Shown here in pieces: positions 6,225 to 24,033 of a DNA stretch of 64,000 nucleotides. The translations under genes were made by a program, and so were the position numbers. Numbering within the stretch: the stretch's first letter is position 1; every line of letters begins with the position of its first letter. The notes below the pieces were generated by a model, which made no database searches, was not told the DNA's origin, and worked only from the letters and a program-made list of their open reading frames with translations. The DNA is taken from positions 1,240,001 through 1,304,000 of the forward strand of contig NZ_CP041146.1 in the NCBI RefSeq assembly GCF_006494775.1. The letters run 5' to 3'. This DNA is from Nocardioides humi (GTDB taxonomy: Bacteria > Actinomycetota > Actinomycetes > Propionibacteriales > Nocardioidaceae).

Positions 6225-7048
6225 CGGGCGGCCTCCTGCTTGTCCGCCCGGCTGGTGAGTGTCGCCAGCGACGTACCGCCGTCCCAGACGACGCCGACCT
6301 GGCGGTAGTAGCCGCCGATGACCTCCTGCACCTCGAGCCGGTGCAGCTCCTCGGTCGGGGACGCGAACAGCTCGAGCTCGACGTCGCCGGTGTACGCCGG
6401 GCCGGCCTCGAACGAGCTGGAGCCGGAGGCGATGAGCTCGGCGTACGCGTCGGGGCTGCCCTTCTCGATGCCCGGGTAGACGCGGTGGTGGGCCATCGGG
6501 TGGCCGTTGACGAAGCCGTTGGTCGGCGACTCCTCGCGCAGCGTCAGCACGGCCTGGGCGAGGCGGCGGTCGCCGGCGGCGAGGGTGGCTCCGAAGACGC
6601 CGCCGGGGGCGACCTGCGGCGCTGCATGGGAGAAGGGGTGCGGGCGGGTCTGCCACATGGAGCCGAGCTTCTTCGGGTAGCCCTGGTGCATGCCGCGGGC
6701 GATCGCGAAGTCCTTGTCGACCCAGATGTAGACGCAGCGGGAGTAGGTCACGCCCTCGAAGGAGCAGCGGACGACGACGAACGCCTCCTTGTACTGCGAG
6801 CGGACCGGGTCGAGCAGCTCCTCGCGGGTGCCCGAGCAGGACTGCCAGTCGGCCCAGATCAGCGCGACCGCACCCGGGTCCTCCGGCGCGAGCTCGAGCG
6901 GCGCGGGCAGCAGCTCGGCGACGCGGGCCGGGTCGGTGCGGTACTCGACGGTCAGCAGGTCGCCGGAGTAGTACCACGGTGGCGACGGGATCAGGGAGGA
7001 CTGGCCGGTCGCGGTGCGGGGGTAGAAGAACCCCTCCATGTTGGTCAT
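6221..7048 (-). CDS. Acetoacetate decarboxylase family protein, first gene of the meta-cleavage operon
   Basis: 275 residues of the acetoacetate decarboxylase (ADC) family. The segment MHQGYPKKLGSM carries the adjacent lysine pair that forms and tunes the Schiff base in true decarboxylases; EYRTDP and LLPAPLEL near the N-terminus and PMAHHRVYPGIE are also family-like. ADC-fold proteins can be decarboxylases, hydratases or aldol-condensing enzymes. Here it heads the hpa-like operon, so it may perform a decarboxylation or hydration step that the single-domain HpaG-like protein cannot; that is speculative. A GAGG sequence 5 bases before the ATG is the likely ribosome binding site. Two copies of the shared palindrome lie just upstream. 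Confidence 0.82.
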   Translation of the reverse strand: MTNMEGFFYPRTATGQSSLIPSPPWYYSGDLLTVEYRTDPARVAELLPAPLELAPEDPGAVALIWADWQSCSGTREELLDPVRSQYKEAFVVVRCSFEGVTYSRCVYIWVDKDFAIARGMHQGYPKKLGSMWQTRPHPFSHAAPQVAPGGVFGATLAAGDRRLAQAVLTLREESPTNGFVNGHPMAHHRVYPGIEKGSPDAYAELIASGSSSFEAGPAYTGDVELELFASPTEELHRLEVQEVIGGYYRQVGVVWDGGTSLATLTSRADKQEAAR

Positions 7049-7078: not shown

Positions 7079-7169
7079 GTCGTTCGGATCCGTACGATAG
7101 CCATCCCCGGGACGAAAGACCACCCTTGCGGGCAAACTTCTCACGGGATATTGTTCGGATACAAACGAT
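7079..7169. promoter_or_regulatory. Divergent promoter region with two copies of the shared 20-bp operator
   Basis: Between the meta-cleavage operon (minus) and the P450 gene (plus). Site 1 is 7079-7098 (GTCGTTCGGATCCGTACGAT) and site 2 is 7150-7169 (ATTGTTCGGATACAAACGAT), 71 bp apart. Both fit the near-palindrome ATCGTTYGGATCCRAACGAT, found again at 17461, 17530, 20497 and 20517. The dyad shape suits a homodimeric MarR-type repressor, and a MarR gene lies next to the copies at 17.5 kb. Confidence 0.7.
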
Positions 7170-7194
7170 CTACCTGAACGGATGGAGAACCGCC

Positions 7195-8460
7195 GTGGAG
7201 AAGCCGCCGTACGTCCCGCTGGCCGACGTCGACCTCGCCGACCTCGACCGCTTCGTGGGCAACCATGCCTGGGGCATGTTCGACACCCTCCGCACCGAGG
7301 ACCCGGTCCACTTCCAGCCGGAGCACGACGGCGGCCGCGGCTTCTGGGCCGTCACCCGGCACGCCGACATCTGCGAGGTCGACAAGGACCCCGACACCTT
7401 CACCTCCTCGAAGTTCGTGAACCTCGAGGAGGTCGACGACGACCTGCAGGACATCCGCCGCTCCATCCTCGAGACCGACGGCACCCGGCACCGCGCCCTG
7501 CGCAAGCTGATCGCGCGCGAGTTCAGCCGGCCCAACCTGATGCGCAACTACGAGGACTTCCTGCGCGACCTCACCAAGACCACGGTCGACGCGGCGCTCG
7601 CCCACCCGGAGTTCGACTTCGTGAAGGAGATCAGCGCCGACTTCCCGATCCAGGTGCTGGCCCGCCTGCTCGACGTGCCCCAGGAGAAGACCGGGCAGCT
7701 GATCGACTGGGGCAACGAGATCATCGGCTTCTCCGACCCGGAGTACGCCAAGGTGCTGATCACCGACGCCGAGAGCGAGAAGTACAAGCACCTGCCGTTC
7801 CGCTCCCCCGTCTCCGCCGAGGTGTTCGAGTACGGCCGCAAGCTCGCCGGCGAGCGGCGCGGCGGGTCGGGCAGCGACCTGGTCAGCATGCTGGTCAACA
7901 AGATCCCCGAGGACGGGCAGGCCATGTCGGCCACCGACTACGACAACTACTTCCTGCTCCTCGTCGTCGCCGGCAACGAGACCACCCGGCACACCATCAG
8001 CCACTCGATGCTCGCCCTCCTCGAGCACCCCGAGCAGCTGGCGATCCTGCAGGAGCGGCCGGAGCTGATCCCCAACGCCGTCGAGGAGTTCCTGCGCTGG
8101 GCCTCCCCCGTCTACCACTTCCGCCGCACCGCCACCCGCGACACCGAGCTCGGCGGCAAGGAGATCAGGAAGGACGACAAGGTCGTCATGTGGTTCGCCT
8201 CCGGCAACCGCGACGACGCCGTCTTCGAGCGCCCCTACGACTTCGACGTCACCCGCACCGACATCGACCACGTCACCTTCGGCAAGGGCAGCCCCCACCT
8301 GTGCCTCGGCAACAACCTCGCCCGGATGGAGATCCGGCTCATGTTCGAGGAGCTGATCCCCCGCCTGCGCTCCATCGAGCTCGCCGGCGACGTACGCCGG
8401 GTCCGGAGCAACTTCGTGAACGGGATCAAGACGCTCCCCGTCAAGGTCACCACCCGCTGA
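7195..8460 (+). CDS. Cytochrome P450
   Basis: 421 residues, full length for a soluble bacterial P450. The I-helix oxygen-binding motif is VVAGNETTRH, the K-helix ExxR is AVEEFLRW, and the heme loop is FGKGSPHLCLGNN with the cysteine ligand near residue 370. NRDDAVFERPYDFD is typical of actinobacterial CYP12x/CYP14x-like enzymes, but no substrate can be assigned. The GTG at 7195 is preferred: it has GGAG 7 bases upstream and the protein begins EKPPYVPLADVDL. It is transcribed away from the hpa-like operon across the two operator copies, so it is probably co-induced and may hydroxylate the ring or a side chain before cleavage. No ferredoxin gene is adjacent. Confidence 0.93.
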   Translation: MEKPPYVPLADVDLADLDRFVGNHAWGMFDTLRTEDPVHFQPEHDGGRGFWAVTRHADICEVDKDPDTFTSSKFVNLEEVDDDLQDIRRSILETDGTRHRALRKLIAREFSRPNLMRNYEDFLRDLTKTTVDAALAHPEFDFVKEISADFPIQVLARLLDVPQEKTGQLIDWGNEIIGFSDPEYAKVLITDAESEKYKHLPFRSPVSAEVFEYGRKLAGERRGGSGSDLVSMLVNKIPEDGQAMSATDYDNYFLLLVVAGNETTRHTISHSMLALLEHPEQLAILQERPELIPNAVEEFLRWASPVYHFRRTATRDTELGGKEIRKDDKVVMWFASGNRDDAVFERPYDFDVTRTDIDHVTFGKGSPHLCLGNNLARMEIRLMFEELIPRLRSIELAGDVRRVRSNFVNGIKTLPVKVTTR

Positions 8461-8468
8461 CCCTCCGC

Positions 8469-8528
8469 GAGGTGCGGGGTCTGCACGCGCGAAGTGCGGG
8501 GTCTGCAGGCATGAGGTGCGGGGTCTGC
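8469..8528 (+). repeat. Three direct copies of a 16-bp unit, 22-bp period
   Basis: GA(G/A)GTGCGGGGTCTGC occurs at 8469-8484, 8491-8506 and 8513-8528, separated by 6-bp variable spacers. It lies just after the P450 stop codon and before the small gene at 8578. Only one base differs between copies. No function can be assigned. Confidence 0.75.
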
Positions 8529-8577
8529 GGCAGGCGCGGCGTCGACATTCGGCGGCGCGGGTCCGCAGGCGCGTGCC

Positions 8578-8784
8578 ATGCTCCGGCTCATGGAGCCGAG
8601 GAAGGTCGCGTCGGGTGAGTTCGCCGAGGGCGGCGACCTGACCGCGCTCGCCGCCCTCGCGGCGGTCACGCCGCGCTTCGGAAGGCGGAGCGGCGCACCC
8701 CCGTGGCTCGCGTGCTGGGAGGGCGAGGACACGGTCGTCGTCCTGGCGCACGGGGACGTGCGGTGGGGAGCGGAGCGCCGGTGA
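8578..8784 (+). CDS. Hypothetical protein, 68 aa
   Basis: A short open frame beginning MLRLMEPRKVASGEF, with a possible second start at the ATG four codons on. It has no recognised motif. It ends in a GTGA overlap with the next small gene, which suggests that the two are translated together. The middle (SGAPPWLACWEGEDTVVVLA) looks like a folded beta-rich protein rather than noise. Support is moderate: coupling to the next gene and reasonable composition, without a clear ribosome binding site. Confidence 0.45.
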   Translation: MLRLMEPRKVASGEFAEGGDLTALAALAAVTPRFGRRSGAPPWLACWEGEDTVVVLAHGDVRWGAERR

Positions 8785-9203
8785 GCGACGAGGAGCTGTG
8801 GGTCTCGGAGGTCCCGAAGTACGGCGTGGTCCGCACCGTCGTGCGCGACGGCGATCACGCGGCCCGGTTCGACGACCTCAACGGCGACGGGCGGGAGTAC
8901 TGCCTGACGCTCTTCCGGCGCGAGGGCGCGGCCTGGAGACCGCTGGCCGACGTCGACGACTCCGACCATCCGGGACCCGACGACTCGGCGATCCGGGGCA
9001 CGTGGTCCGGCGGCGTGTGGGCGGTCGGCCGCGCGGCCCCCGGCTCGGTCGTGCGGGTGCGGATCGGGAGCCGTACGCAGGCGGTCGAGGTGGACGCCGA
9101 CGGGTGGTGGCTGCGGGTCACCGAGCTCGAGGAGATCGCTCAGAGCACGGGAAGCATCCCGACGTCGTACCCTCGCCACGTAGCGGCGGACGGGCCGTCC
9201 TGA
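8781..9203 (+). CDS. Hypothetical protein, 140 aa
   Basis: Starts at a GTG that overlaps the stop of the preceding 68-aa frame; GGGGAG lies about 10 bases upstream. The product (VSDEELWVSEVPKYGV...) is acidic, with alternating hydrophobic residues, and looks like a small soluble beta protein. No family was recognised and there is no signal peptide or membrane segment. Its last 64 bp overlap the 3' end of the convergent gene at 9140-9547. Confidence 0.55.
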   Translation: MSDEELWVSEVPKYGVVRTVVRDGDHAARFDDLNGDGREYCLTLFRREGAAWRPLADVDDSDHPGPDDSAIRGTWSGGVWAVGRAAPGSVVRVRIGSRTQAVEVDADGWWLRVTELEEIAQSTGSIPTSYPRHVAADGPS

Positions 9204-9547
9204 CCCCGACCCTCGCCGACGACGGCGTCCACGGGGATCCCGAGCTCCCGACAGAAGTCGAAGACATGCAGGGTGTCGAGGCGCTCCAGCAGGCTGCTCA
9301 CGTGGAGCGTCGCGTCACCGACGGTCGAGTGATCGTAGCCGGCGACCGCCGTGCCGTCGTCGTGACGGACGACGAGGACGTTGCAGCGCCGGCGGGGGTC
9401 GTAGTCGACGAAGGTGAGACCGAGCGTGACGACGCCGAGCAGGACGTGCTTCACGACGTCCCAGGCCGTCTGGCCGCCCGCGTGCTCCTCGTACTCCGCC
9501 CGGACGCCGAACCACCGCGCCGCGACCGAGCGCTCATCGGCCTCCAT
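9140..9547 (-). CDS. Hypothetical protein, 135 aa
   Basis: Begins MEADERSVAARWFGVRAEYE. A TACGCT hexamer ends 7 bases before the ATG, so a leaderless mRNA is likely. The middle HVLLGVVTLGLTFVDYDP is hydrophobic but too short and mixed for a confident membrane helix, and the C-terminal half (VFDFCRELGIPVDAV) looks soluble. No family recognised. Its 3' end overlaps the convergent gene 8781-9203 by 64 bp, so one of the two stop assignments could be wrong, though both frames read like protein. Confidence 0.6.
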   Translation of the reverse strand: MEADERSVAARWFGVRAEYEEHAGGQTAWDVVKHVLLGVVTLGLTFVDYDPRRRCNVLVVRHDDGTAVAGYDHSTVGDATLHVSSLLERLDTLHVFDFCRELGIPVDAVVGEGRGQDGPSAATWRGYDVGMLPVL

Positions 9548-9582
9548 GCCGGCCAGCGTAGGCAGGCGGAGGTCGCCGCTCC

Positions 9583-10659
9583 TCAGGGCCGCACCTCGTA
9601 GACGTTGTTGAACGGCGTCTGCGCCGCGATCCGGAACCTGGTGAACCCGGCGGCGGTGACGACGTCCCGGATCCGGGCGGGGCCGGCCTGGGTGCCGAGG
9701 GCGGCGCCGACCGGCTGGGAGAGCGAGGCGGGGGTGCACAGCAGGGTGGAGAAGCCGTAGTAGGCGCGGCCGATCGGGTTCAGGTTGTCCTCGAGGTGGT
9801 CGCCGGCGGCGGGCTCGACGACCATCCAGGTGCCGTCGGGGGCGATGACGCTGCGGACGTGGCGGGCCGCGCCGAGCGGGTCGCCCATGTCGTGCAGGCA
9901 GTCGAACATGGTGACCAGGTCGTAGCCCTCGCCGGTGAACTCGGTGGCCGCCGCGACCTCGAAGGCGGCGCGGTCGCCGACGCCGGCCTCCTCGGCCCGC
10001 TCGCGGGCGGTGGCGATCGAGTCCGCGTGGTAGTCCGAGCCGGTGAAGGCGGACCGCGGGAAGGCCGTCGCCATCAGCACCGTGGAGGCGCCGTGGCCGC
10101 ACCCGACGTCGGCGGCGGACGCGCCGGTCTCGAGCTTGTCGACGACGCCGTCGAGCGCCGGGAGCCAGGAGGAGACGAGGTTCGCGGCGTACCCGGGGCG
10201 GAAGAACCGCTCGCATCCCGTGTGCACGTCCGCGTTGTGCTCGTGCCAGCCGAGCCCGGCGGCGGTCCGCGCCGCCTCGATGACGCGGTGGGAGTCGCGG
10301 GCCGTGCCGAGGGCGATCTGGAAGAAGCCGGGGAGGTACGCCGGGCTGCTCGCGTCGGTGAGCGCGACCGCGTGCTCGGGGGGCAGGGCGAACCGACCCG
10401 TGGCTGCGTCGTACTCGACGAACCGCCCGGCGGCCTGCGCGCTCAGCCACTCCCGGGCGTAGGGCAGCACGGTGTCGGTGCGGGAGGCGAGCTCCTCGGG
10501 CGTGCTCGGTCCGTGCTCGGCGAGGTCGCGGTAGTAGCCGAGCCGGTCCCCCATCCGCACCAGTGCGCAGTTGAGGGTCGCGCCGACCTCGTCGACGGCG
10601 CGGAGGACGAACGCCATCAGCTTGTCGGCGTCGATCTCGGTGGTCGGTGTGATGCTCAT
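9583..10659 (-). CDS. SAM-dependent methyltransferase with N-terminal winged helix (Rv2258c type)
   Basis: 358 residues. The N-terminal about 100 residues (EVGATLNCALVRMGDRLGYY, then TPEELASRT) form the helix-turn-helix-like dimerisation domain seen in Rv2258c-type enzymes. The class I methyltransferase fold follows, with motif I DVGCGHG, an acidic post-I residue in FTGSDYHADS, and VTMFDCLHDMGDP as motif IV region. The ATG at 10659 has a GAGGGGGAAG purine run just upstream. It faces the LysR gene across a palindromic region, so it is the probable LysR target. The small-molecule substrate is unknown; catechol O-methylation would be sensible beside a ring-cleavage island but is a guess. Confidence 0.85.
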   Translation of the reverse strand: MSITPTTEIDADKLMAFVLRAVDEVGATLNCALVRMGDRLGYYRDLAEHGPSTPEELASRTDTVLPYAREWLSAQAAGRFVEYDAATGRFALPPEHAVALTDASSPAYLPGFFQIALGTARDSHRVIEAARTAAGLGWHEHNADVHTGCERFFRPGYAANLVSSWLPALDGVVDKLETGASAADVGCGHGASTVLMATAFPRSAFTGSDYHADSIATARERAEEAGVGDRAAFEVAAATEFTGEGYDLVTMFDCLHDMGDPLGAARHVRSVIAPDGTWMVVEPAAGDHLEDNLNPIGRAYYGFSTLLCTPASLSQPVGAALGTQAGPARIRDVVTAAGFTRFRIAAQTPFNNVYEVRP

Positions 10660-10714
10660 GGTGCTTCCCCCTCGGTCGGTCGGACAGGTGCCGTGACGGT
10701 AGGAGCGCGGATCA

Positions 10715-10737
10715 TTAGGATCAACGGTGATTCCTAA
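10715..10737. promoter_or_regulatory. LysR-type inverted repeat in the methyltransferase/LysR divergent promoter
   Basis: TTAGGA at 10715-10720 and its complement TCCTAA at 10732-10737 are separated by 11 bases, the geometry of a LysR binding site. It lies 14 bp before the lysR start and 56 bp before the methyltransferase start. The likely binder is the adjacent LysR protein. Confidence 0.6.
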
Positions 10738-10750
10738 CGAGGTATCAGTG

Positions 10751-11692
10751 ATGCTGATAGGTCTGGTGCGGGGCGTCCGCGTGCTGTGCGAGGTCGCGGC
10801 CCAGGGCTCGTTCTCGGCTGCCGCGCGCTCGCTGGGCATGACGCAGTCGGCGGTCAGCCAGCACGTCGCGGCCCTCGAGCGCGAGGCCGGGACCGCGCTG
10901 GTCGACCGCGGCACCCGTCCGATGGAGCTCACCGAGGCCGGGTCGGTCCTGGTCCGGCACGGCCGGGTGATCCTGGCGCAGCTCGACGGCGCGGAGCAGG
11001 CCCTGGCCGCGATCACGGGCCGGCGCGCGGGGCGGCTGCGGCTGGGCAGCTTCCCGACCGCGCTGACGACCTTCGTGCCGGAGGCCGTGCGGACCCTGCG
11101 CGCGACGGCGCCCGAGCTCGTGCTGACCGTCGTGGACGACCACATGCAGGGCCTGGTCCCGCGGCTCACGGCCGGGGAGCTGGACCTGGCGGTCGTGTAC
11201 GAGAACCCGTCGCTCCCCGACGACTCCCTCGCCCGGCTGACGACGGTGCCGCTGTTCGACGACCCCTACCGGGTGCTGCTCCCCGAGGGGCACCGGCTGG
11301 CGCGACGCCGGCGGCCGCTGTCACTGGCCGACCTCACCGGCGAGGTCTGGGTCGGTGGGCGGCCGGGCAGCGCGTGGTTCCGGATCCTGCTGCACGCGTG
11401 CCGGGCGTCCGGGTTCGAGCCGCGCACGCTGCTCACGACCGACGACCACCGGGCGGTGCAGGCGTTCGTGGCCGCGGGGCTCGGCATCGGCGTGGTGCCC
11501 GGACTCGCCGCGTCCTTCCCCTCGCCCGGGGTGGTGGTGCGCGGCCTGGACACCGGCGCTCCGGTACGACGCATCGCCGTCGCCCGCCCGCCCGGCGAGC
11601 CGGTGCCGCCGCCGGTCGTCGCGATGACCGAGGTCCTGCTCGACGTCACCCGGGCGCGCCGCGACCCACGAGGGGCACCACGTCGCGCATGA
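10751..11692 (+). CDS. LysR-family transcriptional regulator
   Basis: 313 residues from the ATG at 10751, which has GAGGT 7 bases upstream. The N-terminal winged helix includes FSAAARSLGMTQSAVSQHVA (recognition helix), and the effector domain starts near residue 90 with GRLRLGSFPTALTTFVPEA. LysR proteins act as tetramers on T-N11-A sites and respond to a pathway metabolite. Such a site lies immediately upstream, and the methyltransferase is divergent. It ends in a 47-bp tail-to-tail overlap with the LLM gene at 11646. Its effector is unknown. Confidence 0.93.
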   Translation: MLIGLVRGVRVLCEVAAQGSFSAAARSLGMTQSAVSQHVAALEREAGTALVDRGTRPMELTEAGSVLVRHGRVILAQLDGAEQALAAITGRRAGRLRLGSFPTALTTFVPEAVRTLRATAPELVLTVVDDHMQGLVPRLTAGELDLAVVYENPSLPDDSLARLTTVPLFDDPYRVLLPEGHRLARRRRPLSLADLTGEVWVGGRPGSAWFRILLHACRASGFEPRTLLTTDDHRAVQAFVAAGLGIGVVPGLAASFPSPGVVVRGLDTGAPVRRIAVARPPGEPVPPPVVAMTEVLLDVTRARRDPRGAPRRA

Positions 11693-12518
11693 CCCGCTCG
11701 AGCTGCTGCTCGTGGTCGGCCACGGGCCAGAGGAACAGCAGCTCCGCGCCGGCGTCGGCGTACGCACGCAGCAGGGCCGCGCACCACTCGGGCGGGCCGA
11801 CCAGGACCCGTCCCGCCAGGTCGTCCTCCGGGCGGTGGAGCAGGGCCGCCAGCCGGCTCAGCCACGCGGCGCGCTCGCCGGCGTCCTCGGTGACGAACGT
11901 CCACATCGTCGCCACCGCGCACGGTACGCCGTGCGCGGCGCGGCCGGCGGCGACCTGCGCAGGCGTGGTGCTGTACGCCGACGCCAGCCAGCCGTCGCCC
12001 AGGCGTGCGACCCGTCGCAGCCCGGCCGGCGAGCCCCAGCTGCCGATCCAGACCGGCGGGCCGCCGGGGCGCACCGGCCGCGGCTCGAGCACCGGCGTCC
12101 CGTCGTCCGCCGACCGGCCGAGATGGGCCCGGAGCGCGCGGACCGCGGCCTCGAACCGCGGCCAGCGCTCGTCGAAGTCCAGCCCGGCCAGGGCGTAGTC
12201 GGCCGGCGAGGACCCGGGACCGACGCCCAGCAGGAGCCGGCCGCCGGACAGCACGTCGAGCGCCGCCGCGGCCTTCGCGAGCACCGCAGGCCCCCGGACC
12301 ACGGGAAGCGCGACGGTGGTGGCCAGGGTCAGGTCGCCGCTCGCCTCGATCACGCTGGACAGCGCCACGATGCCGTCGAGCCACGGACGCCGGAACTGCA
12401 GGTGGTCGTTCACGGCGAGCGCCCGGAAGCCCAGCGCGCCCGCCGTCCGTGCGTACGACGCCAGGTCGCCGACATCCCCCGGCGACCCGAGCAGCGGCAG
12501 GTGCGCGCCGTACTCCAT
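11646..12518 (-). CDS. LLM-class flavin-dependent oxidoreductase, last gene of the permease/GS operon
   Basis: 290 residues beginning MEYGAHLPLLGSPGDV. Luciferase-like features are ALGFRALAVNDHLQF, LTLATTVALPVVRGPAVLAK, SGGRLLLGVGPGSSP and PPVWIGSWG. It starts only 6 bp after the stop of the Rieske-like gene and shares the operon promoter near 17.5 kb. A partner flavin reductase could be the VanB-type protein two genes upstream, but that pairing is speculative. It is not closely similar to the LLM protein at 1950-2882. Confidence 0.85.
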   Translation of the reverse strand: MEYGAHLPLLGSPGDVGDLASYARTAGALGFRALAVNDHLQFRRPWLDGIVALSSVIEASGDLTLATTVALPVVRGPAVLAKAAAALDVLSGGRLLLGVGPGSSPADYALAGLDFDERWPRFEAAVRALRAHLGRSADDGTPVLEPRPVRPGGPPVWIGSWGSPAGLRRVARLGDGWLASAYSTTPAQVAAGRAAHGVPCAVATMWTFVTEDAGERAAWLSRLAALLHRPEDDLAGRVLVGPPEWCAALLRAYADAGAELLFLWPVADHEQQLERVMRDVVPLVGRGAPG

Positions 12519-12524
12519 CCGCAG

Positions 12525-13547
12525 TCAGCCCTCGTCGGCCACCAGTCGCCGCAGGATCTTGCGCACCTGCAGGGCGGCCAGGTCGGCGGCGACGTTGACG
12601 TCCTCGCCGTACCCGTCGCGGTCGATGACGTCCTGCATGGTCTCGAGGATCTCGCGGACCTTGAGGTAGTACGACTCGAAGATCGGCCGCAGTACGTCGG
12701 TCGCCGGAGCCCCCGGAGCGAAGTTGCGGCTGACCCGCCAGATGTGGCGGGTGTGCCGCTCGTCGACGGGCGTGACGGCGTGGGTGAAGCGGAAGGTCTG
12801 CGGACCGCCCTCCGCCTCGGGCAGCAGCACGTCCCAGCGGTCGGCCCACAGGCCGGGGGCGAGGAAGGCGCCCTCCTCGCGCTGGGGGTACGACGCCACC
12901 GCGGAGGAGCCGGAGATCTTGGCCTGCCACTCGGGCATGGGCGCGGCCGGCCAGTCGCGGTGGAAGTGCACGGTCGTCTCGGTGAGCTCGACCTCGAGCG
13001 CGGGCGCGACGCCGGCCAGGGCGGGCGGCGAGATGACGGGGTCGACGACGGCGACATGGGTGATGTCGGCGAAGTTGTCGTGGAGCAGCCCGACGCCGGC
13101 GGCGGTCTCCCACTGCCCGCCGAAGGTCTCCCACGACCCGTCCGTCAGCCACGGCACCGGCACGGGCGGACGGCGGTCGGCCAGCGACGGTTCGCCGAGC
13201 CAGACCCAGACCAGGCCGCCCTCCTCCCGGACCGGGTACGACGGCACCCGGGCGCCATAGGGCACCTGCTCCTGCGAGGGGACGTGCACGCAGGCACCGG
13301 TGCGGTCGTAGGCGAAGCCGGAGTACCCGGACACGATGGTGTCCCCCTCGACCCGGCCCAGGCTGAGCGGGAAGGGCCGGTGGGCGTCGCGGTCCCCGAG
13401 GGCGACGACCGCGCCGTCGCCGACCCGGAACAGCACGACCGGGCGGTCCAGGGCACGCGTGCCGAAGGGGGTCGCGCCGACCTCGGCGGAGGCGGCGAGG
13501 GCGTACCACGCGTTGCGCGGGTAGCCGGCGGTGCTGCGGTCCCTCAT
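12525..13547 (-). CDS. Rieske-oxygenase (VanA-like) homologue lacking most metal ligands
   Basis: 340 residues. The layout is that of a vanillate-demethylase-type oxygenase alpha subunit: RNAWYALA near the N-terminus, a Rieske domain (residues about 20-115) and a catalytic domain. The ligands are changed: where the family has C-x-H it reads D54-A-H56, and where it has C-x2-H it reads S73-G-Y-S76. At the mononuclear iron site the D-x2-D-x2-H-x4-H motif reads DNFADITHVAVVD, so the second His is Asp169. The flanks (PLSLGRVEGDT, FAYDRTG) are well kept, so this is substitution and not a frame error. It probably cannot hold a normal [2Fe-2S] cluster. The adjacent reductase is intact. It may be a scaffold or regulatory paralogue, or an enzyme with a new chemistry. 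Confidence 0.8.
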   Translation of the reverse strand: MRDRSTAGYPRNAWYALAASAEVGATPFGTRALDRPVVLFRVGDGAVVALGDRDAHRPFPLSLGRVEGDTIVSGYSGFAYDRTGACVHVPSQEQVPYGARVPSYPVREEGGLVWVWLGEPSLADRRPPVPVPWLTDGSWETFGGQWETAAGVGLLHDNFADITHVAVVDPVISPPALAGVAPALEVELTETTVHFHRDWPAAPMPEWQAKISGSSAVASYPQREEGAFLAPGLWADRWDVLLPEAEGGPQTFRFTHAVTPVDERHTRHIWRVSRNFAPGAPATDVLRPIFESYYLKVREILETMQDVIDRDGYGEDVNVAADLAALQVRKILRRLVADEG

Positions 13548-13558
13548 GACCACGCTCC

Positions 13559-14527
13559 TCACAAGTCCAGGGTCAGCCGGTCGGAGCGGCACCGGGAGAC
13601 ACAGATCATCATGAACTCGTTGGACTCCTTCTCCTCGTCGTTGAGGATCGAGTCGCGGTGGTCGACGTCGCCGTCGATCACCTCGGTCTCGCAGGTGCCG
13701 CACACGCCCTCGAGGCAGGAGCCGACGACGCTGACGCCGGCGGCCTTGCAGACCTCGAACACGGACTGGTCGGCCGGCACCGACAGGGTCAGCCCCGAGC
13801 GCTGGAGCACCAGCTCGAACCCGGTGTCGCCGCCCGCGGTCTCCGGGGCCGCCTTCGCCGCGAACCGCTCCAGGTGCAGGCTCCCCGCCGGCCAGACGGC
13901 GCACCGCTCCTCGACCGCGTCGAGCAGCCCGGTCGGCCCGCAGGCATAGACCAGGGTGCCGGCAGCAGGCGAACCCAACAGCGCGGCCAGGTCAGGCAGA
14001 CCCGCCTCGTCCTGCGGCAGCAGGCTCACCCGGTCGCCGTACGCCGCCAGCTCGTCGAGGAACGCCATCGACGTCCGCGAGCGGCCGCCGTACACGAGCC
14101 TCCAGTCGGCGCCCGAGGCGGCGGCCTCGGCGATCATCGGCAGCATCGGGGTGATGCCGATGCCGCCGGCGATGAACAGGTAGCGCGGCGAGGCGACCAT
14201 CGGGAAGTGGTTGCGGGGGCCGCGGACCCGCACCCGCGCGCCCTCCCCCAGCTCGGCGTGCACCGCCTTCGAGCCGCCGCGGCTGTCGGGCGTGCGGAGC
14301 ACCCCGATCCGCCACCGGTCGGGGTCGCCGGGACTGCCGCACAGGGAGTACTGGCGGACCAGGTCCTCCCCCAGCACCAGGTCGATGTGGGCGCCGGGCG
14401 TCCACGGCGGCAGCGCCGTGCCGTCCTCGGCGGCCAGCGTCAGGACCGCCACGTCGGTCGCCGCCTCGACGGCGGAGACGACCGTCAGGTCCGCCTCGAA
14501 CTCACGGACGATGGGCTGTGTCGCCAC
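13559..14527 (-). CDS. PDR/VanB-type oxidoreductase (FMN/NAD reductase with C-terminal ferredoxin)
   Basis: 322 residues. The FMN-binding RQYSLCG motif is near residue 75, the NAD-binding domain has AGGIGITPMLPM and ACGPTGLLDAV, and the C-terminal plant-type ferredoxin carries SCLEGVCGTCETEVIDG plus the last cysteine in MMICVSRC. All four cluster cysteines are present. Such proteins pass electrons from NAD(P)H to a Rieske oxygenase. It lies 11 bp before the Rieske-like gene, whose own cluster ligands are missing, so its electron acceptor is unclear; the P450 at 7195 is another candidate. A GTG start is used. Confidence 0.9.
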   Translation of the reverse strand: MATQPIVREFEADLTVVSAVEAATDVAVLTLAAEDGTALPPWTPGAHIDLVLGEDLVRQYSLCGSPGDPDRWRIGVLRTPDSRGGSKAVHAELGEGARVRVRGPRNHFPMVASPRYLFIAGGIGITPMLPMIAEAAASGADWRLVYGGRSRTSMAFLDELAAYGDRVSLLPQDEAGLPDLAALLGSPAAGTLVYACGPTGLLDAVEERCAVWPAGSLHLERFAAKAAPETAGGDTGFELVLQRSGLTLSVPADQSVFEVCKAAGVSVVGSCLEGVCGTCETEVIDGDVDHRDSILNDEEKESNEFMMICVSRCRSDRLTLDL

Positions 14528-14556
14528 GAGATCCTCTTCCCTCCTCGCCGGCCACC

Positions 14557-15909
14557 TCACAGGTGGTAGGCGTACTCCCGGAACTCCCAGTCGGTCACGA
14601 ACTGGCCGAACCGCTCGAGCTCGTTGCGCTTGTAGGCGACGAAGGTCTCGACGAAGGACGGGCCGAGGAGGTCGGCGAGGTCCTTGTCCTCCTCCAGGGC
14701 GTCGATCGCCGTGCCGAGGTCGGCGGGCAGCCGGTCGGCCTTCGTCGGGTCGTAGCCGTAGCCCTCGAGCTTGTGCGGCGGCGTGAGGCCGTCGCGGATG
14801 CCGAGGTACGCCGCGGCGAGGAGCCCGGCGATGGCGAGGTACGGGTTCGCCGAGGCGTCGCCGAGGCGCAGCTCCAGGCGCGAGGCGCGGCCGCGCTCGG
14901 GCGGGATCCGGACCATCGCGCTGCGGTTGTCCAGGCCCCAGTCGACCAGCCACGGCGCGAGCGTGTCGGGCCCGAACCGCTTGTAGGAGTTGATCGTCGG
15001 GTTGCTGATCGCGGCCAGCGCGGGGGCGTGGGCGAGCACGCCGGCGATGGCGGAGCGGGCGATGTCGGAGAGCCCGTCGGTGCCCTGCGGGTCGTCGAAG
15101 AGCGGCTTGCCGTCGGCGTCGAGGGTGCTGAAGTGCACGTGGAAGCCGGAGCCCCCCTCGTCGTTGAACGGCTTGGCCATGAAGGTCGCCATCTTGCCGC
15201 GGCGCCGGGACAGCTCCTGGACGGCGTGCTTGAACCGGAACGCCCGGTCGGCGGCGTCGAGCGCCTCGGAGTGCCACAGGTTGATCTCGAACTGGCCGCT
15301 GGAGAACTCGTGGTTCGCGGCGACCACGTCGAGGCCGTACGCCGCCAGCTCGCGCAGCGACGCGAGCAGGGTGTTCTCCGGGTCGCCCTTGAGGCCCGCG
15401 ACGTACACGTTGCCGGTCGCCTCGCCATACCGGCGCCAGCCGTTGGGGGCGGACTCGTCGGGCTCCAGGACGTAGAACTCCAGCTCGGGGCCGACGATCG
15501 GGCGCATGCCGAGCTCGGTGAACCGGTCGACCACCCGCCGGAGCACCTGTCGCGGGCTCTCCTCCGACGGCGTGCCGTCGGGGTTGTAGACGTCGGCGAT
15601 GACGTGCGCGACACCGGGCTCCCAGGGCACCGCGCGGACCGTGCTCAGGTCCGGGACGGCCACGATGTCGGGCAGCCCGGCCGAGAGGCCGCCGGCGATG
15701 TCGACGACGTCGCCCATCGGGGAGGTCGCGTAGACCGAGCGGCAGAAGGCGACCCCGTCCCCGACGGTGCGGTCGAACCGGTCGGCGAGGACGTCGCGGC
15801 CGCGCTCGGTGCCGATCAGGTCGCTGTAGCCGAGCCGGACGACGTCGATCCCGTCCGCGCCGAGCTGCTCCGCGGCCACGCGCAGGGCGTTCTCGTCGAT
15901 GTGCTCCAC
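14557..15909 (-). CDS. Glutamine synthetase family protein, gamma-glutamyl-amine ligase type
   Basis: 450 residues of the GS fold: the N-terminal domain with GYSDLIGTERGRDV, catalytic Glu motif PELEFYVL, ANHEFSSGQFEINL, HVHFS (His), NPTINSYKRF, and the Arg-rich MVRIPPERGRASRLELRLGD. Length and sequence match the PuuA/GlnA3/GlnA4/TdnQ group, which joins glutamate to amines, more than housekeeping GlnA. It follows an APC permease and is linked through a shared operator to a gamma-glutamyl hydrolase and a GATase1 protein, the set used in gamma-glutamylated amine catabolism. The amine is unknown; a polyamine, ethanolamine or an arylamine are all possible. Confidence 0.88.
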   Translation of the reverse strand: MEHIDENALRVAAEQLGADGIDVVRLGYSDLIGTERGRDVLADRFDRTVGDGVAFCRSVYATSPMGDVVDIAGGLSAGLPDIVAVPDLSTVRAVPWEPGVAHVIADVYNPDGTPSEESPRQVLRRVVDRFTELGMRPIVGPELEFYVLEPDESAPNGWRRYGEATGNVYVAGLKGDPENTLLASLRELAAYGLDVVAANHEFSSGQFEINLWHSEALDAADRAFRFKHAVQELSRRRGKMATFMAKPFNDEGGSGFHVHFSTLDADGKPLFDDPQGTDGLSDIARSAIAGVLAHAPALAAISNPTINSYKRFGPDTLAPWLVDWGLDNRSAMVRIPPERGRASRLELRLGDASANPYLAIAGLLAAAYLGIRDGLTPPHKLEGYGYDPTKADRLPADLGTAIDALEEDKDLADLLGPSFVETFVAYKRNELERFGQFVTDWEFREYAYHL

Positions 15910-15940
15910 GGTCAGTCTCCGTTCGTCTCTCGGTGATCCA

Positions 15941-17401
15941 TCATCGGCCGACGGCCGCGGTGTTGTGGAGTGCTTCGTCGAAGCGCTCCAGGTCGGTCGA
16001 CAGGGCGTCGTACACGACCGGCCGGTTGGAGCGCAGGTAGAGCGCGTAGCCGATGCCGCCGACGAGCCCGACGACCAGCAGCCACGGCAGCAGGTTCACG
16101 GCCCTCGCGTCGGAGCCGGCGACGATGTCGAAGTGCTTGAAGGCGAGCGCGACGGCGAAGCAGAGGCCGAGGAAGCCCAGGCCGGGCGCGATCAGCGTGG
16201 TGCCGAGGCGCGGGTCGTTCTTGCGCCGGAAGTGGACCACGATCGACAGCGCCGCCAGCGCCTGCAGCACGAGGATGGCCAGGGTGCCGAAGCCGAGCAT
16301 GCTCGGGACGACGGTGAGGATCGGGTCCGCGCCGGCGAGCGCGAAGACGATGGCCACGGTGACGGCGAAGCCGGCCTGGACCGTGCTGGCGACGTACGGC
16401 GCGCCGCTCGGCCCCGTCTTCGACAGGATCGACGGCAGGATCCGCGCCCGGCCCAGCGAGAAGACGTAGCGGCTGGCGGAGTTGTGGAAGGCGAGCATCG
16501 CGGCGAACAGGCTGACCAGCAGCAGCCAGGGCATGAGGTCGCTCAGGAAGCCGCCGATGTAGTTGTCGGCGAGGCTGAACACGAGGTCGCCGGTCTCCAG
16601 GTGGGCGAGGGCGGTGTCCTGCGCCCGGGCGACGCCGGTCGCGCTGACGACGGCCCACGTCGTGACGCCGAGGATGACGCCGATCAGGGTGATGGCGACG
16701 TACGTCGCGCGGGGGACGGTCGTGAGAGGGTTCTTCGCCTCCTCGCTGAACAGGGAGGTGGCCTCGAAGCCGAGGAACCCGGTCGCGGCGAGCAGCAGGC
16801 CGATCGACAGGGAGCCGGAGGTGATCGAGTCGAAGGAGAACGCCGAGAGCGAGTAGCCGTCCTTGAAGAGCACGGCGATGTCGAAGACGATGAGGATCGA
16901 GGTCTCCAGGATCAGCGAGACGCCGAGGATCTTGGAGCTGAAGTCCACGCCGCGCAGCGCCATCAGGTAGCAGACGGCGATCGAGGCCAGGCCCCAGAAC
17001 AGCCAGGGCATGTCGAGCCCGGTCTTGTCGGCGATCACGATGCTCATGAAGAAGCCGCTGGTGCCGATCGTGCCGACGACGAAGAAGTTGTAGCCGAGCA
17101 TCGCGATGAAGCCGGCGGCGAGACCGGCCGGCCTCCCGAGGCCCTTGACGACGAAGGCGTAGAAGCCTCCGGCGTTGACCAGCTCGCTCGACATCTTGCC
17201 GTAGCCGATGGCGAAGAGCAGGAGCACGGTGGCGACCGCGAGGAACGCGAACGGCGTGCCGCCGCCGTTGCCGAGGGCGATCGCCAGCGAGGCGACGACC
17301 ACCATGCCCGTCAGCGGCGCGACCGCCGCGAGGACGAGGAACACGATGGCGCCCACCCCGAGGGCGTTCTTGCGGAGAGTGGTGTTGACGGTGTCCGACA
17401 T
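15941..17401 (-). CDS. APC-superfamily amino acid/amine permease
   Basis: 486 residues with about twelve hydrophobic segments. LTGMVVVASLAIALGNGGG and NAGGFYAFVVKGLGRPAGL are the TM1 and TM2-3 region of the APC fold, and ATGFLGFEATSLFSEEAKNP is the family's TM6 motif. The first residues (MSDTVNTTLRKNALGVG) are cytoplasmic. As the first gene of the GS-like operon it probably imports the amine or amino acid that the ligase modifies. The promoter region upstream (17402-17619) contains two copies of the shared operator and is divided with the MarR gene. Confidence 0.92.
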   Translation of the reverse strand: MSDTVNTTLRKNALGVGAIVFLVLAAVAPLTGMVVVASLAIALGNGGGTPFAFLAVATVLLLFAIGYGKMSSELVNAGGFYAFVVKGLGRPAGLAAGFIAMLGYNFFVVGTIGTSGFFMSIVIADKTGLDMPWLFWGLASIAVCYLMALRGVDFSSKILGVSLILETSILIVFDIAVLFKDGYSLSAFSFDSITSGSLSIGLLLAATGFLGFEATSLFSEEAKNPLTTVPRATYVAITLIGVILGVTTWAVVSATGVARAQDTALAHLETGDLVFSLADNYIGGFLSDLMPWLLLVSLFAAMLAFHNSASRYVFSLGRARILPSILSKTGPSGAPYVASTVQAGFAVTVAIVFALAGADPILTVVPSMLGFGTLAILVLQALAALSIVVHFRRKNDPRLGTTLIAPGLGFLGLCFAVALAFKHFDIVAGSDARAVNLLPWLLVVGLVGGIGYALYLRSNRPVVYDALSTDLERFDEALHNTAAVGR

Positions 17402-17460
17402 CGGGACTCCTTCGCTGTCACGCGCGGCCGGAGCCGGCGGTCACCGGCACCTTCCGCCGG

Positions 17461-17549
17461 ATCGTTCGGATCCGTACGATAGCCATATGTGACCCAGGGC
17501 ACCATCCCTCGAGGGGAGGTTTTCCGAAAAATGTTTGTTACCGAACGAT
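17461..17549. promoter_or_regulatory. Divergent permease/MarR promoter with two copies of the shared operator
   Basis: Site 3, ATCGTTCGGATCCGTACGAT at 17461-17480, matches site 1 over at least 19 of 20 bases and both are followed by AGCCAT. Site 4, AATGTTTGTTACCGAACGAT at 17530-17549, is the more diverged half of the pair. They lie 69 bp apart, almost the same spacing as at 7.1 kb. A TACGCT hexamer at 17608-17613 ends 6 bases before the MarR ATG, consistent with a leaderless mRNA. Confidence 0.7.
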
Positions 17550-17619
17550 CACCAGTGACTGCGCGCCGCCGCCCGCCCTCCTCCACGGCAGGGCGGGGCC
17601 TGCTGGCTACGCTGGCCGC

Positions 17620-18126
17620 ATGCCGGACCGCCACACGCTCGAGGAGACCGAGCGCGCGATGAAGGACCACGTGGGCGCACTGCCGCTGGACTTCGCCGCC
17701 GCCAACGCCCTGTCCAACCTCTTCCGCGCCGCCAACGCCGTGCGCAGCGAGCTGACCAACCGGGTGCTGCGCCAGCACGACATGACCTGGACCGGCTTCG
17801 TGGTCCTGTGGGTCGTGTGGATCTGGGACGGCATGGAGACCCGGCACGTCGCCGAGTCCGCCGACATCTCCAAGGCCACCCTGACCGGCGTGGTGAAGAC
17901 CCTCGAGGCCCGCGGCCTGATCGCGCGGGAGGGCGACGAGCAGGACCGGCGCCTGGTCCGGCTGCGGCTCACCACCGAGGGCGTCACGCTGATGGAGAAG
18001 CTCTACCCCGAGTTCAACGCGGTCGAGTCGGAGATCATCGGCCAGCTCTCCGAGCGCAAGGTCAGCACCTTCACCAAGACGCTGCGCGACGTCGTCAACG
18101 CCGTCGAGGGTCAGGACGAGGCGTAG
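17620..18126 (+). CDS. MarR-family transcriptional regulator, probable controller of the island
   Basis: 168 residues. The winged-helix core is clear: ETRHVAESADISKATLTGVVKTLEARGLI (recognition helix and turn) followed by the wing DEQDRRLVRLRLT, the DxRxxR/K signature of MarR proteins. It is flanked by helices for dimerisation. HpaR, the repressor of the enterobacterial homoprotocatechuate operon, is also a MarR protein. It lies beside operator sites 3 and 4, and identical-type sites precede the two other catabolic operons, so it is the leading candidate for binding them; this is inference. Its last codons overlap the convergent hydrolase gene by 16 bp. Confidence 0.92.
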   Translation: MPDRHTLEETERAMKDHVGALPLDFAAANALSNLFRAANAVRSELTNRVLRQHDMTWTGFVVLWVVWIWDGMETRHVAESADISKATLTGVVKTLEARGLIAREGDEQDRRLVRLRLTTEGVTLMEKLYPEFNAVESEIIGQLSERKVSTFTKTLRDVVNAVEGQDEA

Positions 18127-18836
18127 GCGCGCTCCCGCGCCGCCTCGACCAGGGCGCGGAACAGCCCGGCCTGGGCCGGGTCGGTCGCCGCGGTGTCCTC
18201 GGGGTGCCACTGCACGCCGAGGTACCAGCCCTGGGCACCGGCGAGCTCCACGGCCTCGATGACGCCGTCCGCCGCGTGCGCCACCGCGCGCAGGCCGCGG
18301 CCGAGCCGGCCGAGACCCTGGTGGTGGTAGCAGGAGATGCTCGGCGCCGTCCCGACCACGCCAGCGAGGACCGAGTCCGGCCGCACCGCGATCTCCTGGA
18401 CGACGTGGCGGTGCGTGCGATCCCCCAGGTCCTGGACCAGGTCGCCGCCGAGGGCGACGTTGACCACCTGGTTGCCCCGGCAGATCGCCAGCAGCGGCAG
18501 GCCGGAGCCGAGGGCGTGCCGGGCGACCGCGAGGTCGAAGGCGTCCTGCTCCTCGTCGACGTCGTACTCCGTCGCGTGCGTCTCCTGGCCCGCCCACCGG
18601 GCGGCGAGGTCGCCGCCTCCGGGCAGCAGCACGCCGTCGGCGTACCAGAGCCGGGCGGCGACCTCGGCGTCGTCCGCGCCGGTCCCCGGTGCGACCGGGT
18701 GCACGACGAGCGGCTCGCCGCCGGCGGCGTAGACCGCGTCGAGCAGGGCGCGTGCCGCCACGTCGGCGCCGTAGCGCAGCGCCGAGGCCGACGCGGAGAA
18801 CCGCGCCGGGACGGCGATCAGCGGGCGGCGGCTCAT
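18111..18836 (-). CDS. Gamma-glutamyl-gamma-aminobutyrate hydrolase family (PuuD-type, peptidase C26)
   Basis: 241 residues of the class I GATase-like hydrolase family. VLLPGGGDL precedes the nucleophile motif LAICRGNQVVNVALGG (Cys), and the catalytic His and Glu are in GVQWHPED. PuuD removes glutamate from gamma-glutamyl-GABA after GS-like activation and oxidation of putrescine, and a similar release step is expected here. The ATG overlaps the stop of the amidase gene (ATGA at 18833-18836), so the two form an operon driven from the promoter at 20.5 kb. Together with the GS-like ligase it makes a gamma-glutamyl amine route likely. Confidence 0.88.
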   Translation of the reverse strand: MSRRPLIAVPARFSASASALRYGADVAARALLDAVYAAGGEPLVVHPVAPGTGADDAEVAARLWYADGVLLPGGGDLAARWAGQETHATEYDVDEEQDAFDLAVARHALGSGLPLLAICRGNQVVNVALGGDLVQDLGDRTHRHVVQEIAVRPDSVLAGVVGTAPSISCYHHQGLGRLGRGLRAVAHAADGVIEAVELAGAQGWYLGVQWHPEDTAATDPAQAGLFRALVEAARERAYASS

Positions 18837-20466
18837 CGCGCGATCAGCCCGGGCGCGTGGTCCTCCACGAGGCGGGTCGCCCGCTCCCAGGCGGCGGCGA
18901 ACCGGATCACCCCCGCGTCGTCGTGGTTGCGACCGATGACCTGGAGGCCGATCGGCAGGCCGGACCGGCCGAATCCGGCGGGCATGGCCAGCGTCGGCGC
19001 CCCGAGCAGGGTGCCGATCGCGGTCACCTCCATCCAGCGGTGGTACGACGACATCGCGACGCCCTCGATCTCGGCGGGCCACTCGAGATCGGCGGCGAAG
19101 GGCATCGTCTGCGCCGTCGGCAGCAGGACGTGGTCGTAGGTCTCGAAGAGCGTCCGGAACCCGTTGTACATCGCGGTCCGCTTGACCGAGGCGTCCCACA
19201 CGTCGAGCCCGGTGAGCGCGGGATTGCCGTCGGCGCCGGTCAGCAGCCCCTCGATCTCGTAGACGGCCTCGGGCTTCAGGTACGGGCGCCAGGCGGGGTT
19301 GTCGTAGACGGGCTTGTTCAGGCCGCCGCTGATCCAGTGCCGGAAGACGAGCCAGAGGGGCCACAGGTCCTCGTTGCCGCGGAAGGAGCCGAAGGCCGGC
19401 AGCGCGTCGACCTTGTCGACCCGCGCGCCGAGGGCGCGCATCCGGTCGACCGCCGCGCCGGTGACCTCGAGGACCTCCTGCTCCATCGGGAGGTAGCCGC
19501 CGAGGTCCGCCATCCAGGCGATCCGCAGGCCGCGCAGGGTCGTGCGCCGCACCTTGCCGAGCGGCGCGGGATCCTGCTCGATCGCCAGGGGCGCGCGTAC
19601 GTCGTACCCGGACATGGTGCTCAGCAGGAGCGCGAGGTCACGGGCGTCGCGGGCGATCGGGCCCTCGGTGCCGCCCTGCTGGACGAACTGCTCGTTGCCC
19701 GCACCGGGCACCCGCCCGTACGACGGCCGCAGCCCGAGCACGTTGTTCCACCCCGGCGGGTTGCGCAGCGAGCCGAAGAAGTCGCTGCCGTCGGCGACCG
19801 GCAGCATCCGCAGGGCGACGGCGACCGCGGCGCCGCCGCTGCTGCCCCCGCGCTCCGGGTCTGGTCGTAGGCGTTGTAGGTCGTGCCGAACACCTTGTTG
19901 TAGGTGTGCGATCCGAGGCCGAACTCGGGGGTGTTGGTCTTGCCGATGAAGACGGCGCCCGCGGCGCGGACCCGCTCGACGAAGAGCGCGTCGGCGGTGG
20001 CCGGTGGAGCCGCCGGGACGTCGAGCTGCCCGAAGAACCCGGCCGACGTCGGCATCCCCTCGACGTTGGCGAGGTCCTTCACGGCCTGCGGGAAGCCGTG
20101 CATCCAGCCCTGGTACCGGCCCCGGCGGAGCAGGCGGTCCTTCTCCGCCGCCTCGGCGAGCAGCTCCGCACGCGGGCGGAGCGCGACGATCGCGTTGACG
20201 GCGGGGTTCACGGCGTCGATGTGGTCGAGATAGGCGGTCATCACCTCGACGCAGGTCACCTTGCGCTGCCGGATGGCGGCCGACAGCTCGGCCGCGGACC
20301 ACCACACGATGCGGCGCAGGTCGGAGGGTCGCTTCACAGCAGGCCACGCTACGTCGGGCGCGACCGGCGCCGCCGCGGCCTCGGAGGCCGCGGCGGTGAG
20401 CGCGCCCAGCGCGACGCCGGCGGCCGTGGCGCCGGCGACGACGGAGCGGCGAGAGACGGTGGTCAT
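18833..20466 (-). pseudogene. Tat-exported amidase (amidase signature family), frameshifted as sequenced
   Basis: About 544 residues when the frame is repaired. The N-terminus MTTVSRRSVVAGATAAG is a twin-arginine signal with an Ala-rich cleavage region, so the enzyme acts outside the membrane. The Ser-Ser-Lys triad is represented by Lys in QAVKDLANV, the GGSSGG loop, and the nucleophile Ser in DFFGSLRNP. The frame breaks inside the GGSSGG codons, in a run of five C at 19845-19849 where six are needed. Read through, the protein is complete to DHAPGLIAR. It would hydrolyse an amide outside the cell, feeding acid or amine to the importers. The missing base is probably a sequencing error. Confidence 0.85.
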
Positions 20467-20496
20467 CGAGTTCGTCCTTTCGACCCTTCACCAGAG

Positions 20497-20536
20497 ATTG
20501 TTTTGATCCAAACGATCTTGTTCGGACCCGAACGTA
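20497..20536. promoter_or_regulatory. Two abutting copies of the shared operator upstream of the amidase operon
   Basis: Site 5, ATTGTTTTGATCCAAACGAT at 20497-20516, and site 6, CTTGTTCGGACCCGAACGTA at 20517-20536, lie head to tail with a 20-bp period, so two dimers could bind the same face of the helix. They lie 31 bp before the amidase start codon and about 130 bp before the LuxR gene. Confidence 0.68.
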
Positions 20537-20663
20537 AGGTGACCTGCGCGACATCCGCAAGCCCGTGCCGCGTTTTCGGACCACCCGGCCGAGACCCTTG
20601 CCAGCGCCCCGCCCGGTCTCTACCGTGAGGACCCGAACGTCCGCTCGTCACCGTGGGGGCAGC

Positions 20664-21722: not shown

Positions 21723-21755
21723 CCCCGGGGATCCACCAAGGGATCCGCCAAGACT

Positions 21756-21769
21756 GGCAATTCTGCCAA
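21756..21769. promoter_or_regulatory. Palindrome TGGCAATTCTGCCA upstream of the deacetylase/ABC operon
   Basis: TGGCA and TGCCA arms flank ATTC. Just before it, GGGATCC followed by (A/G)CCAAG occurs twice in direct repeat (about 21729-21753). It differs from the MarR-type palindrome, so another regulator, perhaps the LuxR protein, would bind. It lies 76 bp before the deacetylase ATG. Confidence 0.5.
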
Positions 21770-21784
21770 TGACCCAGGTCACAC

Positions 21785-21810: not shown

Positions 21811-21845
21811 CCGGGCCCGCCGGCGCCGTACCCCTGGGAGACGCG

Positions 21846-24028: not shown

Positions 24029-24033
24029 GCGCC

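Follow-up and report, generated by a model that had tools for sequence, protein, structure and literature searches.

Why does one 20-bp palindrome recur in front of several catabolic operons in Nocardioides humi, and which protein binds it? The question is raised by a stretch of 64,000 nucleotides of its chromosome (contig NZ_CP041146.1, positions 1,240,001 to 1,304,000 of the forward strand), here called the window, whose numbering is used throughout. A preliminary description had placed six copies of the palindrome in the window, and direct comparison located a 20-mer at each of the following positions (mismatches are counted against the consensus ATCGTTYGGATCCRAACGAT; no strand is assigned to the sites).

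7079..7098: predicted operator 1, on the side of the acetoacetate-decarboxylase-family (ADC) gene, GTCGTTCGGATCCGTACGAT, 2 mismatches; a site lies here in 12 of 12 aligned ADC/P450 regions
7150..7169: predicted operator 2, P450 side, 71 bp from operator 1, 2 mismatches
17461..17480: predicted operator 3, permease side, 1 mismatch; the same 20-mer is in the same place in 7 of 7 aligned Nocardioides/Pimelobacter relatives
17530..17549: predicted operator 4, marR side, 69 bp from operator 3, 5 mismatches; 70 bp from operator 3 in 7 Nocardioides/Pimelobacter relatives
20497..20516: predicted operator 5, amidase side, 2 mismatches; the tandem is present in amidase-bearing relatives
20517..20536: predicted operator 6, directly adjoining operator 5, 5 mismatches; the two are also paired in relatives

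All six sites were confirmed. Their coordinates and the spacings within pairs (71, 69 and 20 bp) agreed with the preliminary description, as did the near identity of two of them, 7079 and 17461, which are alike at 25 of 26 bases with the trailing AGCCAT included. The statement that all six fit the consensus held for four sites, with at most 2 mismatches each, but 17530-17549 and 20517-20536 match it loosely. The sites do lie in the promoter regions of three minus-strand operons, as had been described, but these regions are divergent and also face the plus-strand genes for a P450, MarR and LuxR. A search of the window with the consensus, allowing at most three mismatches, gave four matches against 0.01 expected. 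In a matrix scan of the window the six sites scored 21.9-34.5 bits and the next best place 10.8, although the matrix was derived from the six sites themselves, so that their scores are no independent test. Across the genome (6,220,618 bases in a single contig), the wider pattern WTYGTTYGGNNCCRAACRAW matched at exactly these six places when up to two mismatches were allowed, and its reversed control pattern had no match in this genome. The additional sites at unrelated genes that would have spoken against a shared regulator were thus absent from the genome. The two weak sites gain independent support because the same positions are occupied in Nocardioides/Pimelobacter relatives, beside marR (17530) and in the amidase tandem (20517).

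We interpret the six palindromes as the predicted operators of one local regulon under the MarR-family protein encoded at 17620-18126, and give this reading a probability of about 0.86. The genes directly concerned are listed here; operons were assigned from strand and spacing alone.

17620..18126, plus strand: MarR-family regulator, proposed repressor of the regulon and of itself (winged-helix domain PF01047, 47.3 bits against a cut-off of 24.6)
6221..7048, minus strand: ADC, MppR-like, first gene of operon 1 (PF06314; MppR 180.7 bits, below the cut-off of 380)
7195..8460, plus strand: cytochrome P450 (PF00067), divergent from operon 1
15941..17401, minus strand: amino-acid/amine permease, first gene of operon 2 (PF13520)
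19846..20466, minus strand: amidase N-terminal piece, first gene of operon 3 (PF01425 positions 1-129 in frame 19621-20466)
18833..19849, minus strand: amidase C-terminal piece, other frame (PF01425 positions 128-444 in frame 18833-20584)
20664..26531, plus strand: LuxR-type regulator, HDAC-family amidohydrolase and ABC importer, divergent from the amidase; probable further target
10703: LysR-type regulator, cluster member

That the three operons and the P450 form one MarR regulon had already been suggested in the preliminary description. This proposal, with marR itself as a further predicted member, is supported by co-occurrence across the genus, by sites before the genes that lead transcription units, by genes that have moved and by a near-invariant recognition helix.

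Concerning co-occurrence, a MarR orthologue (at least 50% identity; at least 152.8 bits) was found in 9 of 59 genomes of the genus, each carrying 4-9 sites (57 in total). At least four sites were present in all nine genomes with MarR versus one of the 50 without it (Fisher p 8e-10, a value that overstates independence because the counted genomes are related). An HpaD-like gene, searched for independently (E 1e-60), led to the same nine genomes and to no others. The reversed control pattern had 4 matches in the 59 genomes. G057, which is without MarR, has four sites of a different-looking palindrome (G and L numbers are our handles for genomes and for examined stretches). A different near-perfect palindrome, GTCGTTTGGGACCAAACGAC (or its complement), occurs one to four times each in G018, G036 and G057, all without this MarR; it is perhaps the operator of another regulator.

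A contig scan for MarR yielded 15 loci, and in 13 of these the MarR identity was 54-95%. These 13 came from five Nocardioides, Pimelobacter simplex 3E, four Mycobacterium/Mycolicibacterium genomes, metagenome-assembled genomes of a Mycolicibacterium and of a member of the Micrococcales, and Actinomadura kijaniata. In all 13, sites of at least 15 bits adjoined genes of the same set. L084 and L085, whose MarR identity is 25-33%, had one match each with no set gene beside it, and the control loci, 69 kb surrounding 21 MarR genes of more remote kinship, gave one weak match (15.6 bits).

The position of the sites relative to transcription units was then counted in 19 genomes. A site was present upstream of 95 of 97 leading genes versus 4 of 128 internal genes (Fisher p 9e-56, from genomes picked by their MarR orthologue and from rows that are related). 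It was counted if it lay between 260 bp upstream of a gene start and 40 bp inside the gene, and a gene was called leading when no same-strand gene of the set lay within 200 bp upstream, genes outside the set being ignored. The count left out genes under the per-family identity limits (34-55%), starts less than 60 bases from a locus end, and C26 and amidase rows less than 500 bases from a locus edge when the upstream gene lies outside the examined piece. It also left out L071, L075 and L080 (which match G034, G052 and G042), L084 and L085, and L087. The last holds an odd site of G056 (C1:991803, L087:3304; 24.9 bits) that is flanked by a metallo-beta-lactamase-fold gene on one side and cytochrome bd genes on the other, none of them related to the pathway. 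The leading genes without a site were the C26 gene in G010 and marR in G024; directly upstream of the former is a 37%-identical dehydrogenase, below the identity limit, and this C26 gene may not be a leading gene at all. The four internal genes with a site each stand behind a gap of 61-107 bp.

Could chance, or mobile-element repeats landing in promoters, have produced such a pattern? The six sites do deviate from the consensus by up to 5 bases. However, about 0.033 sites per 20 kb are expected at 15 bits, whereas the stretches of the 19 genomes hold 111 sites, 107 of them before core set genes. Of the other four, L039:7461 precedes LuxR, L044:19842 lies 57 bp ahead of an amidohydrolase gene, L078:11946 precedes a second MarR gene, and the last is L051:9013. 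The null rate and the exclusiveness of the sites in the whole genome already contradict a chance origin, the probability of which we regard as negligible.

For an action of the sites in trans, the strongest evidence comes from genes that have moved. In G049 the LLM gene is on another contig and has its own site, and the reductase and glutamine-amidotransferase (GATase)-like genes, about 44 kb from marR on its contig, have their own sites as well. The LLM gene of G020, which shares a contig with the cluster but lies about 45 kb away from it, likewise has its own site, and in G042 the ADC/P450 pair is on a different contig from marR. Because moved genes carry their own sites, the sites would act in trans and belong to the pathway rather than to one chromosomal spot. 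A separate site before the LuxR orthologue in Root240 (L039:7461; L080:15944) suggests that the LuxR/amidohydrolase/ABC-importer operon is probably a further member of the regulon.

The same sites might be bound by the LuxR-type (20664) or the LysR-type (10703) protein, with the MarR gene merely a target. Both regulators are encoded in the cluster, the LuxR gene faces the tandem pair, and the loci of relatives were picked by MarR, so that its presence there is no test. On the other hand, LysR was not found in stretches L034, L036, L044, L072 and L076, nor LuxR in L034/L035, L041, L044 and L076, though sites are present in them, and all nine genus genomes found through the HpaD-like gene alone carry MarR. 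A palindrome adjoining the regulator's own gene is also the usual MarR arrangement, which counts against both proteins. We consider it quite unlikely that either of them, rather than MarR, is the main binder.

We then examined the MarR protein itself. Palindromes near or over a regulator's own promoter and its target promoters are a trait of the MarR family, and they are present here before marR and the other leading genes, where binding is predicted. The recognition helix ISK[AG]TLTGV was present in 20 of 21 aligned MarR sequences (19 from regulon loci and 2 paralogues), one paralogue beginning with V. The protein matched 12 NCBIfam families, HpaR included, and scored below the cut-off in each. 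At E 1e-30 or better it has 1,416 relatives; among the 120 matches listed, names were either absent or those of the MarR family, three of these adding 'organic hydroperoxide resistance regulator'. The preliminary description had drawn an analogy with HpaR, the repressor of homoprotocatechuate genes. This holds at the level of the MarR family, but the protein is not an HpaR orthologue, because its score for HpaR (TIGR02337) was 57.4 bits, under the cut-off of 121.2, and because the operators differ: the HpaR operator TTAA-N4-TTAA, as given in the available text of PMC7180172, was not matched by the frequency matrix of 88 distinct sites.

A MarR paralogue with 71% identity was observed in G056 (L042/L043; G056:C1:2253000-2284900), near distant relatives of the glutamine-synthetase-like (GS-like), permease and C26 genes. 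The DNA upstream at this place presumably resembles a glycine-riboswitch region.

How, then, would MarR act on these promoters? Inspection and alignment of the promoter regions gave the following elements.

7094..7099, minus strand: putative -10 box TATCGT of the ADC operon, overlapping operator 1 (from alignment)
7126..7131, plus strand: putative -35 element TTGCGG of the P450 promoter; TTGC is here in 12 of 12 aligned regions
7149..7154, plus strand: putative -10 box TATTGT of the P450 promoter, 17-nt spacer, overlapping operator 2
17476..17481, minus strand: putative -10 box TATCGT of the permease operon, overlapping operator 3
20531..20560, minus strand: putative amidase promoter (TTGCGG 20560-20555, 18-nt spacer, TACGTT 20536-20531 within operator 6)

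The operators thus likely overlap putative -10 boxes. TATCGT or TATTGT, which consists of the preceding T and the first five bases of the gene-nearest site, was found in 51 of 95 leading promoters. TTG exactly 17 nt upstream of the operator-overlapping hexamer was present in 24% of the 95 leading genes, compared with no more than 4% at each of the other offsets between 5 and 25, and alignment revealed TTGC-n17-TATYGT conserved before P450. The AGCCAT tail is explained as the strand-opposite flank of the -10 box (reverse complement ATGGC-T). The spacing of the ADC-P450 sites was 71 bp in 11 of 12 aligned regions and 72 bp in L082, Nocardioides and Mycolicibacterium being alike in this respect; that of the sites in the marR promoter was 69-70 bp in the Nocardioides group versus 23-24 bp in four Mycobacterium/Mycolicibacterium genomes. 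By eye, the ADC/P450 spacer of a Mycobacterium (L076:3457-3547) seems to carry a third, weaker palindrome below the 15-bit listing.

In the mechanism that we propose, a MarR dimer would bind each 20-bp site, as co-occurrence suggests for this MarR, at the promoters of the decarboxylase/homoprotocatechuate-type operon, the P450, the permease/ligase operon and the amidase operon, and one of the two permease-marR sites would serve to autoregulate marR. Bound MarR would block RNA polymerase because the sites overlap the likely -10 boxes. The inducer that releases it would be an aromatic or amine compound formed within the pathway, as may be expected from what is known of the MarR family. Promoter-blocking repression with release by a metabolite is therefore the likely mode of action. 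MarR might instead chiefly activate, or act both ways: in the available text of PMC7180172, HpaR of Yersinia pseudotuberculosis represses the hpa genes and activates another operon from a far-upstream site. The operators described here, however, lie on the likely -10 box and not upstream of the -35 element, which suits occlusion, and we regard predominant or mixed activation as unlikely.

Apart from the relatedness of the counted genomes and the choice of the 19 by MarR, several points weigh against a single MarR regulon. MarR and the gene set co-occur in the genus sample, which therefore cannot separate MarR from another regulator. The 50 genus genomes without MarR hold 14 sites, in 10 genomes, and four of the 57 sites counted with MarR (G056 C1:991803, G042 C2:371533, G042 C16:161791 and G049 C1:274667) are outside the examined pathway stretches. 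Around the G056 paralogue, whose helix is almost identical, the surrounding 32 kb contain no site of at least 12 bits. No promoter emerged when the three regions were scanned for a simple sigma-70 consensus, and the -10 hexamers proposed here share 3-4 of 6 bases with TATAAT. Two genes of the set are also split between reading frames. The two frames of the amidase meet at a single conserved point (window about 19,840), whereas the gene is one open frame in six relatives' loci, and the break would be a sequencing error or a recent inactivation; the SDR gene of operon 1 is in two frames (window about 914-950) and is one open frame in L034, L036 and L040. Two frameshifts in one cluster suggest assembly indels or decay, and the pathway may be partly broken here.

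The remaining genes of the cluster indicate what the regulon might be for. The HpaE-, HpaD- and HpaG-like genes, the LLM gene at 1950..2882 and the GATase-like gene are assigned to operon 1, the GS-like ligase, reductase and Rieske genes to operon 2, and the C26 gene to operon 3.

4719..6227, minus strand: HpaE-like aldehyde dehydrogenase (PF00171; HpaE 500 bits, below the cut-off of 638; frame, start codon not fixed)
3767..4735, minus strand: HpaD-like LigB-type extradiol dioxygenase (PF02900; HpaD_Fe 130 bits, below the cut-off of 316)
2895..3662, minus strand: HpaG-like FAA-hydrolase-family protein (PF01557 in a longer frame; HpaG 200 bits, below the cut-off of 276)
1950..2882, minus strand: F420/LLM-class oxidoreductase (TIGR03619 over cut-off)
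1246..1962, minus strand: class-I GATase-like hydrolase (PF00117)
within 426-1231, minus strand: SDR gene in two frames, operon 1
from 429, running out of the window, minus strand: SSADH-like dehydrogenase, operon 1 (434 bits, below the cut-off of 730)
14557..15909, minus strand: GS-like ligase, proposed gamma-glutamylation of an amine (PF00120, 338 bits)
13559..14560, minus strand: 2Fe-2S/NAD reductase (PF00111, PF00175; frame, start codon not fixed)
12525..13580, minus strand: VanA-type Rieske oxygenase (PF00355 and PF19112 in frame 12525-13904; frame, start codon not fixed)
11646..12518, minus strand: LLM-class protein, operon 2
18111..18860, minus strand: peptidase C26/gamma-glutamyl hydrolase-like protein (PF07722 in frame 18111-19364)

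The block of LysR, methyltransferase and LLM genes (window 8900-12520, between the P450 and Rieske genes) is also present in YR527 (L040), and was not found in N. daeguensis, SLBN-35 or P. simplex 3E.

The scores of the HpaD-, HpaE- and HpaG-like proteins mark them as relatives and not equivalogs of the enzymes of the canonical homoprotocatechuate (hpa) pathway, and no HpaH hydratase over the cut-off is present in the genome (best score 170 bits against 351.5, outside the cluster). Their combination with the SSADH-like gene suggests a ring cleavage of the homoprotocatechuate type. The GS-like ligase has a glutamine synthetase domain but is not a true GlnA (310.5 bits, under 429), and it falls below the cut-offs for GGputSyn (273.9 against 650) and type III; among the 120 matches listed, no name was more telling than glutamine synthetase. 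The permease, ligase and C26 hydrolase presumably resemble the Puu pathway. The gene set seems to degrade an aromatic amine, and our guess at the substrate is an arylethylamine or its amide.

Taken further, and with slightly less than even odds in our estimate, this would be a catabolic regulon without prior description. The amidase, with its export-like N-terminus, and other amidohydrolases would free an aromatic amine, which would be imported, gamma-glutamylated by the GS-like ligase, oxidized by the P450 and a Rieske monooxygenase, released by the C26 and GATase-like hydrolases, and carried through meta cleavage by the HpaD/E/G-like enzymes to succinic semialdehyde. The ADC protein might stand in for the hydratase or aldolase that such a route normally has. 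A single MarR repressor, whose conservation extends from Nocardioides to Mycolicibacterium and Actinomadura, would govern the whole. No account of the cluster, its MarR, the operator or a pathway combining gamma-glutamyl ligase, Rieske oxygenase, P450 and homoprotocatechuate-type meta-cleavage was recognised in the literature searched, which comprised titles and the starts of abstracts and covered few subscription journals.

Repression by MarR is ordinary in itself; the gene set that it delimits is of more interest. The array of sites marks which scattered genes probably share one pathway, the P450, Rieske oxygenase, ligase and amidase included, and an actinobacterial amine-degradation pathway without a name becomes directly testable. 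Once the inducer is identified, MarR and its 20-bp operator are a candidate biosensor pair.

We finally compared the proposed regulon with known systems, in each case within the available text of the source. HpaR of Escherichia coli W and Yersinia pseudotuberculosis controls the hpa-meta operon through two operators at one promoter, one of them near the transcription start (PMC7180172). Like HpaR, the MarR described here would be a family member regulating a homoprotocatechuate-type meta-cleavage operon, but its site is 20 bp long whereas that of HpaR is 15 bp, and the gene set is wider than the hpa-meta operon, with a ligase, a Rieske oxygenase, a P450, an amidase and a permease. AesR of Corynebacterium glutamicum is a MarR repressor of two divergent operons that acts through paired inverted repeats overlapping promoter signatures (PMC13413800). 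The same combination of an actinobacterial MarR, divergent operons and paired repeats over promoter signatures is predicted here from sequence; AesR differs in its operator (ACTATG-N3-CATAGT and a second repeat), its response to metal and its targets (PMC13413800). As for the enzymes, glutamylation of the GoaS type is described for aniline (AtdA1), 1-naphthylamine (NpaA1), isopropylamine (IpuA) and putrescine (PuuA) (PMC11335346), and a GS-like ligase is likewise present in our cluster. The aniline type, which has an amidotransferase-like protein and a Rieske oxygenase (PMC11335346), is resembled by the ligase, the C26 and GATase-like hydrolases and the Rieske oxygenase with its reductase, whereas, unlike in the GoaS-type pathways, the ligase is here joined to a VanA-type Rieske oxygenase, a P450, an amidase and HpaD/E/G-like enzymes.

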